Assembly: GCF_019285735.1 (NCBI RefSeq)
Contig: NZ_CP079107.1
Coordinates: forward strand, 2,480,001 to 2,544,000
Source of the DNA: Paeniglutamicibacter sp. Y32M11
GTDB lineage: Bacteria; Actinomycetota; Actinomycetes; Actinomycetales; Micrococcaceae
DNA: 64,000 bases
Direction: 5' to 3'
This document shows positions 214 to 30,589 of the stretch, in pieces (position 1 is the stretch's first letter; every line of letters begins with the position of its first letter). Position numbers and translations under genes: made by a program. The notes under the pieces are model-generated. The model was not told the origin of the DNA. It made no database searches and saw only the letters and a program-made list of their open reading frames with translations.

Positions 214-1332
214 ATGCAGTTCGGTATTTTCTCAGTCAGCGACATCACCCGCGATCCCACCACGGGCAAGACGCCGTCCGAGGCCCAGCGCATCAAGGAC
301 ATCGTGGCCATCGCCAAGAAGACCGAAGAGGTCGGCATGGACGTCGTTGCCATCGGCGAACACCACAACCGCCCGTTCTTCTCATCCTCCCCCACCACCA
401 CGCTGGCCTACATCGCCGCGCAGACCGAGAAGATCATCCTCTCCACGGCCACCACGCTGATCACCACCAATGATCCGGTGAAGATCGCCGAGGACTTCGC
501 GATGCTCCAGCACCTGGCCGACGGCCGTGTGGATCTGGTCCTCGGGCGCGGCAATACCGCCCCGGTCTACCCATGGTTTGGGAAGAACATGCAGGACTCG
601 GTGAACCTGACGATAGAAAACTACAACCTGCTGCGCCGCCTTTGGGATGAGGACACGGTGAACTGGGAAGGCAAGTTCCGCGGACCCCTGCAAAACTTCA
701 CCTCCACCCCGCGTCCGCTCGACGACGTGGCTCCGTTTGTCTGGCATGGCTCGATCCGCACCCCGCAGATCGCCGAGATTGCTGCCTACTACGGAGACGG
801 TTTCTTCGCCAACAACATCTTCTGGCCGAAGGAGCACTACATGCAGCTGATCAACCTCTACCGCGAACGCTATGAGCACTACGGCCACGGCCGTGCGGAT
901 CAGGCCATGGTGGGCCTGGGCGGACAGTTCTTCATCCGTAAGAACTCGCAGGATGCCAAGAATGAATTCCGTCCGTACTTCAACAACGCACCGGTCTACG
1001 GCCATGGTCCATCGATGGAAGACTTCACCGATCAGACCCCGCTAACCGTCGGCTCACCGCAGGAAATGATCGAAAAGACCCTCACCTTCCAGGAGGCGTT
1101 CGGCAACTACCACCGCCAGCTCTTCCTCGTTGACCACGCTGGCCTGCCGGTCAAGACCGTTCTGGAGCAGCTTGATCTCTTCGGTGAAGAGGTGTTGCCA
1201 ACATTGCGGAAGGAACTTGAATCCCGCACTCCGGCTGATCACCCGGCACCGCCGACCCACGCCAACCGCGTTGCTGCCCGCGATGCGAAGCTCGCCGCCG
1301 AAACCACAGCGGCCGGGAGCGTTAATGCCTAA
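214..1332 (+). CDS. LLM-class flavin-dependent oxidoreductase (luciferase-like)
   Basis: A 372-residue luciferase-like monooxygenase, a TIM-barrel enzyme that uses reduced flavin (FMNH2 or F420). The GEHHN motif sits near residues 48-52, followed by the usual TTTL..IAA...I.L.T stretch, and LGRGNTAPVYPWF near residue 110 matches the family. Length is normal. The ATG at 214 follows a strong AGGAGG. The end overlaps the next gene, a MarR regulator, by 8 bp, so the two are almost certainly co-transcribed and perhaps coupled in translation. The substrate cannot be read from the sequence; many relatives are annotated only as alkanal-monooxygenase-like. Confidence 0.9.
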   Translation: MQFGIFSVSDITRDPTTGKTPSEAQRIKDIVAIAKKTEEVGMDVVAIGEHHNRPFFSSSPTTTLAYIAAQTEKIILSTATTLITTNDPVKIAEDFAMLQHLADGRVDLVLGRGNTAPVYPWFGKNMQDSVNLTIENYNLLRRLWDEDTVNWEGKFRGPLQNFTSTPRPLDDVAPFVWHGSIRTPQIAEIAAYYGDGFFANNIFWPKEHYMQLINLYRERYEHYGHGRADQAMVGLGGQFFIRKNSQDAKNEFRPYFNNAPVYGHGPSMEDFTDQTPLTVGSPQEMIEKTLTFQEAFGNYHRQLFLVDHAGLPVKTVLEQLDLFGEEVLPTLRKELESRTPADHPAPPTHANRVAARDAKLAAETTAAGSVNA

Positions 1333-29403: not shown

Positions 29404-30192
29404 TCAGCGGCCCGCCCCCACCTGCACCAATAGCTCCCCGAGCCGAGCGTGGGCGCGCTTCAGGGCCGGCAACGTCACCGGCAAGGATGCGGCCCGGTCG
29501 GTGCGGTGCTCGTCCCGATCGTTACCGACGGTGTTCCAGCAATCCAGGGCGAGGTAGAAGCAACCGCGACTACCCTCGGCGCCGGGGGTATAGACGGCCC
29601 GTGCCGCCAGCAAGTTGGCCGCCCCCGCCGCAGCACCCAGATCCCCGTAGACCAGGTTCTCGTCACCGGATCCGGCGGATAACCCCAGCGTCTTGGTCAG
29701 ACGGCAGCCGTCGCCACCATGGACCTCGCACCACGGCTGACAGTCGTCCGGGTGCTGTTGGCCCCGGTGCCGGGCAACCCAGTCCACGTGGGTCGGCGCA
29801 ACGCCCGCTTCTCGCTCGGCCAGGTGCGCGTCCCCGCTGCGGACCAGGGCCAGAAACCGTCCCAGCTGCGCGTGGACGGTTTTCATGCCCGCGGCGTTGG
29901 TTTGGAACGATGCCGTCGCCTCCCCACGGTAGGTGCTATCAATCCGGGCGAGGTTCAGGGTGCACCACAGTACTGGCGCGTGGTCCTCGTCATCGAGAAA
30001 TTCGCTGCCCACCGAAAGCTCAAGGTCGTTGCAGCCCGAAATCCCGCCGCCGATCCCTTCCGGGTCGATCCCGGCCAGCGTCTCCCTGCTATGAAGTGTT
30101 GCGGGCTTTTCATAGAGCACAAACGCGGCCCCGCAGGTACCGCCGCCGTGATCCTCGCACCATGGCTGGCAGTATTCCGTGGTCTCTGGCAT
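29404..30192 (-). CDS. Two-repeat cysteine-motif protein (DUF6907-like)
   Basis: A 262-residue protein made of two similar halves. Each begins with a metal-site-like motif: YCQPWCEDHGGGTC near residue 7 and DCQPWCEVHGGDGC near residue 153. Each half continues through a beta-rich part and ends in a helix such as LKRAHARLGELLVQV. This resembles the actinobacterial DUF6907 domain (CPxWC...H), here duplicated; function unknown. I chose the ATG at 30192, with AGGAG 9 nt upstream; the frame is open to 30474, but codon use there (AGA, GGA, TTG) is poor and the DNA forms strong hairpins, so I treat it as leader RNA. No signal peptide. Confidence 0.65.
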   Translation of the reverse strand: MPETTEYCQPWCEDHGGGTCGAAFVLYEKPATLHSRETLAGIDPEGIGGGISGCNDLELSVGSEFLDDEDHAPVLWCTLNLARIDSTYRGEATASFQTNAAGMKTVHAQLGRFLALVRSGDAHLAEREAGVAPTHVDWVARHRGQQHPDDCQPWCEVHGGDGCRLTKTLGLSAGSGDENLVYGDLGAAAGAANLLAARAVYTPGAEGSRGCFYLALDCWNTVGNDRDEHRTDRAASLPVTLPALKRAHARLGELLVQVGAGR

Positions 30193-30268
30193 GGCTGTTG
30201 GCTCCTGGGCTACAACGGGAACGATGGTTGCTGCACACACTGCCATGAAGCACCGATACTTTGGCCTG

Positions 30269-30403
30269 CGGAACCCGCCGCCCACAAAAACGGCGGGTTC
30301 CGGATTCCCCCAAGGAACCCAGAACCCGCCGTTTCCCACATCAAGGGACCCCCAAGGTCCCCAGCGTCTTCGCCGAAGTTCTCGTCTCCCCCAAGGAGTC
30401 GAG
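30269..30403 (-). ncRNA. Structured leader RNA with three identical-loop hairpins and an attenuator-like switch
   Basis: Read on the minus strand: hairpin 1 (30403-30381), hairpin 2 (30361-30345) and hairpin 3 (30320-30302) all carry loop TTGGG closed by CC/GG. Arm A (30334-30322) and arm C (30280-30269) both read like CGGCGGGTTC, while arm B (30302-30286) is their complement GAACCCGCCG followed by TTTTT. Thus B can pair with A (13 bp, then T tract: terminator) or with C (12 bp, perfect). Hairpin 3 has an A-C mismatch on the plus strand but a G-U pair on the minus strand, which supports minus-strand transcription, toward the gene starting at 30192. Function is inferred. Confidence 0.5.
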
Positions 30404-30589
30404 ATCACCCACGGGCAGACCACCTCGCCAACGTCGCTTGATCGGCACCCAGCCAATCCTCGATGTCTCTCCACAGGGGCAGACTCGTCTTTTGCGCGTT
30501 GTGCCTGAGCGGAGATGAGCTACATCTACCCGCTTTCACTAGCTAAGACACATGTTCGTCTGGATCGTGACGCGAGGTGGAAAAGAAAA

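Follow-up and report, generated by a model that had tools for sequence, protein, structure and literature searches.

A Probable Genus-Restricted Group of UUGGG-Loop RNAs in Paeniglutamicibacter, One with a Putative recA-Type Promoter, as a Better Account of a Hairpin Array than a Leader Switch

Upstream of a DUF6907-like gene in Paeniglutamicibacter sp. Y32M11, three consecutive hairpins with one and the same loop stand on the minus strand of the window, by which we mean the whole 64,000-nt stretch of DNA that was analyzed. Does this array serve the gene behind it, or is it an RNA in its own right? An earlier note on this DNA had described it as a leader RNA with a terminator/antiterminator switch, in which an arm B pairs with either arm A or arm C. 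We examined the locus in 15 genomes of the genus Paeniglutamicibacter, among which G000 is the window's own genome; the window's array is located on the 4.17-Mb chromosome. The features are collected in Table 1.

Table 1. Features of the array locus in window coordinates; promoter and terminator functions are predicted.
Feature	Position	Strand	Remarks
Promoter-like block CGTCACGATCC-N12-GTCTTAG	30543..30572	minus	transcript would start near 30535; putative function
CAAG-type element TCAAGC	30436..30441	minus	between the H0 position and H1
H1	30380..30404	minus	loop UUGGG; G-C to C-G change in G014, pairing kept
H2	30345..30361	minus	loop UUGGG (UCGGG in G014); at this position only in G000 and G014
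H3	30288..30334	minus	21-bp stem, UUGGG loop, probable intrinsic terminator; G-C to A-U change in G014, pairing kept
Terminator U-run	30286..30290	minus	first three U paired within the stem
Arm C of the proposed antiterminator	30269..30280	minus	perfect partner of B only in own species
Promoter-like stretch of the DUF6907-like gene	30237..30262	minus	after the array; contains CGG, from which an ANNNT box is correctly spaced
DUF6907-like gene	29404..30192	minus	two CxPWC...H repeats; SD AGGAG 30206-30202 before ATG at 30192

All three minus-strand hairpins with their CC-UUGGG-GG closure were indeed found where the earlier note had placed them, its third hairpin being the apical part of the 21-bp stem H3. 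The loop spacings of 39 and 42 nt and the positions of arms A, B and C were confirmed as well, with B:C forming a perfect 12-bp pair in the window. Folding of 30193-30480, which the note had proposed for the minus strand upstream of 30193, gave a z of -3.1 for this strand, and the plus strand was equally non-random (z -3.7). The proposed reading direction toward 30192 is supported by G-U pairs on the minus (sense) strand, because of which H3 is more stable there: the whole stem reaches -39.6 kcal/mol in its minus version versus -30.6 kcal/mol in its plus version, and its apical part -14.4 versus -5.5 kcal/mol. H1 is nearly as stable on one strand as on the other (-12.0 and -12.5 kcal/mol), and for H2 the difference is small (-12.5 and -10.8 kcal/mol). 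Three hairpins (4 bp or more) with a common 5-nt loop arose in only 1 of 20000 dinucleotide shuffles of 30193-30560, two such hairpins in 998 of 20000. Simple scans of the array region found no sigma-70-like promoter and one terminator-like site, which is no excess over shuffles (mean 1.2). That no known RNA family has this pattern, as the note had stated, held in a scan of the window with Rfam 15, which returned 0 matches at the gathering score. The same collection, run against seven array or thiD loci (see below) at E up to 2, gave three matches, none anywhere near the cut-off; these include a human microRNA model, which hit the plus strand of H3 with 24.5 of 70 bits (E 0.5).

The note had further suggested a covariation check, and among relatives the array stems are conserved by paired changes. 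Over 12 pooled hairpins, 9 of the 10 pairs have changed on both sides, and the covariation amounts to 0.54, compared with 0.22 after shuffling and 0.14-0.26 after sliding. The proportion of paired cells is 85%, versus 66% shuffled and 36-68% slid; this percentage is partly built in, since the 12 were chosen as hairpins, whereas the fixed loop on changing stems is not. In G014, 3 of the 21 cells of H3 are unpaired, one of these being a gap.

Next to the array, in divergent orientation, lies an FAH gene, which is present in 15/15 genus genomes. The array itself was found beside FAH in six of them (G000, G014, G005, G010, G001 and G009) and as a remnant in a seventh, G002. The neighbouring protein led to named relatives, which comprise Arthrobacter sp. 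AQ5-05 and three species of Paeniglutamicibacter. For the single hairpin, a covariance model (R1) was built from the hairpins of G000, G014, G005 and G010 together with the lone one of G002. On the 15 FAH loci it gave 21 matches at E up to 1, and 19 of these fall in arrays adjoining FAH, three each in the six genomes with a full array and one in G002. G001, G009 and the FAH copy of G002 were outside the training set; their best matches have E-values of 2.6e-5, 1.2e-5 and 0.31, respectively. Taken alone, the G002 hairpin does not rise above chance level, nor do hairpins two and three of G009 (E 0.21 and 0.69). No other R1 cluster was reported in the 15 genus genomes (E 1) or in 295 family genomes (E 0.1). 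Away from the arrays the hairpins stand singly, and beyond the genus R1 gave only single matches in these 295 genomes at E 0.1, the large family and order scans having run under strict filters with 7-26 candidates scored per genome. In plasmids and phages the window leader had no match.

How closely is the array tied to the DUF6907-like gene? In the window the gene starts 93 nt after the array's U-run, and it lies just downstream of the array in four of the seven array loci (G000, G014, G005 and G010). The arrays of G001 and G009 and the remnant of G002 are without it; in G009 the array sits between FAH and a convergent abhydrolase, with no gene between. The gene in turn occurs without the array in G003 (67% identity) and G007 (48% identity), around which R1 gives three matches only, at E 0.4-0.9 and none of them upstream. 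Thus, 3/7 arrays (one a remnant) have no gene and 2/6 full-length genes have no array, which speaks against a leader of this gene and supports the view that the gene adjoins the RNA without being its target. For G006 a partial relative containing a stop was seen. Outside the genus, the protein has a single weak match (G164, E 7e-4); its window version matches no Pfam family at E up to 5, DUF6907 included, and no NCBIfam entry near the cut-off, and its predicted structure (pLDDT 33) is useless.

Between array and gene lies a promoter-like stretch, which is kept in six homologues, 44 nt before the ATG in five and 41 nt in G007. It carries 9 of the 12 letters of the RecA-NDp consensus (see below) in five genomes and 8 in G007, and with one mismatch allowed the window gene's stretch fits the genome-wide RecA-NDp-type pattern. 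G000 and G014 hold an equal rival site, and a match as good was found in 717 of 20000 random 100-nt windows (3.6% per 100 nt). A RecA-NDp/PafBC-type promoter at this place can be proposed only tentatively, the match being too weak to assign.

If the array were a leader, premature termination at H3 would be relieved by a loop-binding factor or by B:C pairing. The common strand, the short distance to the gene and the terminator-like H3 would suit this, as would the gene's place downstream in four genomes, two of which (G005 and G010) have no U-run between array and gene, so that read-through is possible there. The switch did not withstand comparison: A:B together with H3 reaches -39.6 kcal/mol versus -28.1 kcal/mol for B:C, and A:B is complete before C is transcribed. 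B:C is not conserved either, being perfect (12/12) only in the own species of the four compared; the count, which took in G000, G014, G005 and G010 and left out G001 and G009, found 10/12 aligned cells kept in G014 and 8/12 each in G005 and G010, with insertions. As to the stem followed by TTTTT, the last hairpin is present in 6/6 arrays, and the U-run holds for 3/6 (G000, G014 and G001) and fails for G005, G010 and G009. Given in addition that array and gene each occur without the other and that a conserved promoter-like stretch separates them, we consider a leader unlikely.

The earlier note had also observed that the three loops share a frame reading Pro-Trp-Gly, and had thought of a Trp-rich leader peptide. 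The window does contain an open frame up to 30474 with its loops in one frame. The window's genome is the only one of six in which both loop spacings can be divided by 3, and the Pro-Trp-Gly frame is not conserved: the segment from promoter to last hairpin has stops in every frame except one in G005. A coding region or leader peptide is hence hardly credible. Overall, the earlier interpretation is partly supported by the sequence comparison: a structured same-loop RNA, its direction and the lack of a known family are borne out, while the leader switch and leader peptide are unsupported, and with them a plausible annotation is corrected.

Upstream of the hairpins we found a second kind of regularity. 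The block CGTCAYGATYC followed by [GC]TCTT stands at one spacing in all six genomes with a full array and is degenerate in G002; it has no match to the sigma-70 consensus. From this promoter-like block beside the FAH gene the hairpins recur at about +100, +178 and +260, with the loop of H0 at 94-101 (four genomes), that of H1 at 171-180 and that of the last hairpin at 231-263 (both 6/6 arrays). A CAAG-type element lies 131-132 nt from the start of the block in 4/7 arrays (G000, G005 and G010, and as TTAAAC in G014) and is absent from those of G001, G009 and G002.

Lone UUGGG hairpins also occur in terminator-like places in genus and family. In G011, G000 and G014 (L053, L074 and L064), a single CC-UUGGG-GG hairpin follows an sdhB-like gene at a place typical of a terminator, and G002 has a UUGGG hairpin (L021 4670-4707), 92% identical to H3 over 39 nt, between convergent rmuC-like and ispH-like genes (named from their ORFs), an unrelated place. 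Such intergenic hairpins, which are seen in other genera too, would fit the idea that the array, lying between divergent and convergent genes, is just a stack of terminator-type hairpins with UUGGG as a favoured terminator loop. Against it stand the missing U-runs of H1 and H2, the distances from a conserved promoter-like block, which vary little across six species, and a second RNA with the same parts, described below. Moreover, 106 perfect hairpins with at least 9 bp were counted in 864 kb of the window's genome, and a TTGGG loop is seen in none of them, one having CCCAA across the stem-loop border; H1-H3 themselves fail this strict rule because of an internal loop, their length or G-U pairs. 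We regard the terminator stack as rather improbable.

The second RNA was reached through a lone R1 match in G003 (L055, 24.2 bits, E 0.06), which led to an element adjacent to thiD. It is present in 13/15 genus genomes (L144-L156), the own copy lying at G000:C1:361754-361977 (L154 1342-1565). TTGGGG occurs in the first hairpin of 11/13 copies and in the second of 6/13, at least once in each, which means in both hairpins of four (G003, G013, G012 and G011) and in one of the other nine. All 13 have a loop GGGCAAG or a one-letter variant of it, and GGGCAAGG would be the counterpart of the CAAG-type element, whose homology between the two loci we propose tentatively. CUUG in the loops and CAAG in the core could conceivably form a kissing contact. 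Double-sided changes affect 15 of the 40 consensus pairs; the covarying terminator accounts for seven of these, the first hairpin for six and the core for two. The RNAalifold consensus omits the second hairpin, and six pairs fall on the promoter boxes. G012 was left out of alignment A6 as a near-duplicate of G013. One copy (L055) was scanned against Rfam and gave no match.

Importantly for the relation of both RNAs, a covariance model R2 built from 12 thiD RNAs and from no FAH-locus sequence was run on the window and 14 FAH loci (113 kb). The five best of its 15 matches lie on FAH arrays at E 2.4e-4 to 0.0094, namely in G001 (twice), G005, G010 and the window (30300-30408, E 0.0094); the arrays of G014 and G002 escaped it, and from that of G009 it picked up a single hairpin (E 0.22). 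From this result we conclude that the two RNAs are probably sisters. The UUGGG hairpins are the main link, and the CAAG-type element at +131 in 4/7 FAH arrays lends weaker support. One or both RNAs are present in 15/15 genus genomes, if the G002 remnant is counted. Outside the genus, R2 matched 2 of 280 family genomes at E 0.01, once inside a 291-aa ORF and once in L172 (E 0.0077), and in an order sample it matched 1 of 396 genomes at E 0.001, which was the own genome; plasmids gave no match to the thiD RNA. Since nothing convincing was found in these 280 genomes or in the order sample, the thiD RNA is genus-restricted as far as searched.

We then turn to the promoter of the thiD RNA. The RecA-NDp consensus is given as tTGTCRgtg-8-TannnT in PMC5656591, and PafBC uses this consensus according to PMC6789036. 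TANNNT stands at one spacing in 13/13 thiD RNAs and TGTCGG in 11/13 (CGTCGG in G004, TGACGG in G011), the cut-outs having been anchored on the CGG-ended box. Ten copies carry 10 of the 12 consensus letters and the remaining three 9, 9 and 8, and at least 9 letters are reached at 82 of 200000 random positions. The recA genes of ten genomes score 9/12; of 26 loci examined out of 30, ten have a RecA-NDp-type pattern in front of recA, each in a different genome, and one has it in front of a radA-like gene, named from ORFs. With one mismatch allowed, it is commoner in the 15 genomes than its reversed control (213 versus 75 sites), and a gene for a fused PafBC is present (E 3.2e-91 to 6sj9). By its sequence, with TGTCR at the -26 site and the correct spacing to TANNNT, the thiD RNA thus has a putative promoter of PafBC/RecA-NDp type. 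It resembles known PafBC-dependent promoters in that it scores at about the level of recA, and differs in that it serves an apparent non-coding RNA. The FAH-locus RNA is without a promoter of this type. We found no PafBC-driven sRNA of such kind in the PafBC literature, among the matches listed (the best 8 of 239 in one listing). Genotoxic-stress-responsive non-coding RNAs have been sought in M. tuberculosis, as PMC5057432 reports, so that a damage-responsive RNA as such would not be new.

What, then, is the array? With a probability of roughly 60%, we take it to be an sRNA that stands alone, acts in trans, is restricted to the genus and carries its docking loop in several copies. The minus strand from about 30535 to 30286 would be the gene of a structured RNA of about 250 nt, starting at the conserved promoter-like block and ending at an intrinsic terminator with a UUGGG-loop hairpin; we infer that the window's own copy is transcribed and terminated in this manner, and it may have a link to stress. 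Together with the thiD-adjacent RNA it would form a Paeniglutamicibacter-specific group. Its apparent independence from the downstream gene, the conserved stems and loop, the geometry of the array, the resemblance to the thiD RNA and the RecA-NDp-type promoter of the latter are all supported at the sequence level. We find the locus better explained by a group of UUGGG-loop RNAs confined to the genus, of which one has a recA-type promoter, than by a leader switch.

The UUGGG loops on variable stems are probably repeated docking sites for one partner, through which the RNA would most likely act in trans. This partner would more likely be a protein that is held or titrated, as CsrB holds CsrA, than mRNAs, because the stems vary freely and the complement of the loop is not enriched at mRNA starts in a crude test. 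In that test, CCCAA, CCCCAA and CCCAAG were counted 11, 3 and 1 times near 435 crudely called gene starts, versus 19, 7 and 3 times for the reversed words. These counts weigh against an antisense sRNA whose G-rich loops would pair with CCCAA-type sites in mRNAs, for which there is an actinobacterial precedent of loops as pairing seeds: the 6C sRNA of M. tuberculosis, to judge by the title of a study on it, reportedly binds mRNAs through C-rich loops. We hold this mode of action to be unlikely. More far-reaching is the thought that both sister RNAs bear UUGGG docking loops, that at least one is switched on together with recA by PafBC on DNA damage, and that they titrate an actinobacterial RNA-binding protein. 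This damage-induced counterpart of CsrB is speculative and as a whole doubtful. Returning to the docking-loop sRNA, the conserved repeated loop offers a direct bait for finding the partner, and the recA-type promoter makes the membership of a non-coding RNA in the PafBC response testable.

CsrB/RsmZ-type RNAs consist of several hairpins with one repeated loop motif on variable stems and a terminal terminator. The FAH array also repeats hairpins with one loop motif, but its loop is UUGGG instead of GGA and it is genus-restricted as far as searched. We know of no CsrA in this actinobacterial group and of no sponge RNA of the CsrB kind; to our knowledge, few regulatory RNAs and hardly any sRNA-binding proteins have been described in this family. 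With 6C RNA (RF01066) the array shares that both are actinobacterial sRNAs with a repeated homopolymer-rich loop, the loops being C-rich in 6C and G-rich here. In Corynebacterium glutamicum, 6C RNA is about two-fold up on mitomycin C, as stated in PMC6789036. We considered 6C RNA as a relative or as the target of a G-loop sponge and rejected it: five weak matches lie at unrelated places, one at the end of an aspS-like gene. With the RF01066 model, 0/15 genomes came over the cut-off of 47 bits (best 40.7), in a test that is not sensitive since the control, C. glutamicum, was also below the cut-off. RNAP-binding RNAs of the 6S type follow a bulged long-stem plan. This plan was not seen in the window RNA, which has no Rfam match at the cut-off. 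The likeness to 6S, Ms1 and CoRP is that these are structured intergenic RNAs as well, and for C. glutamicum, searches based on synteny or structure are reported to have yielded no Ms1/6S (PMC11077062). Literature on Paeniglutamicibacter/Arthrobacter small RNAs or DUF6907, mostly non-subscription papers, gave no account of the UUGGG-loop element.

Two further sites were observed. In genus g10 (L085, L087, L091 and L092), a gene that reads like a carboxymuconolactone decarboxylase is preceded by a TGTCA...TGACA palindrome, behind which lies structured sequence that ends in a UUGGG-loop hairpin. In L067, at about 1480-1570 (G001:C49:162226), a 15-bp outer stem encloses two G-loop hairpins, one with UUGGG; judged by eye, the place looks intergenic, and this element is possibly a further structured RNA.
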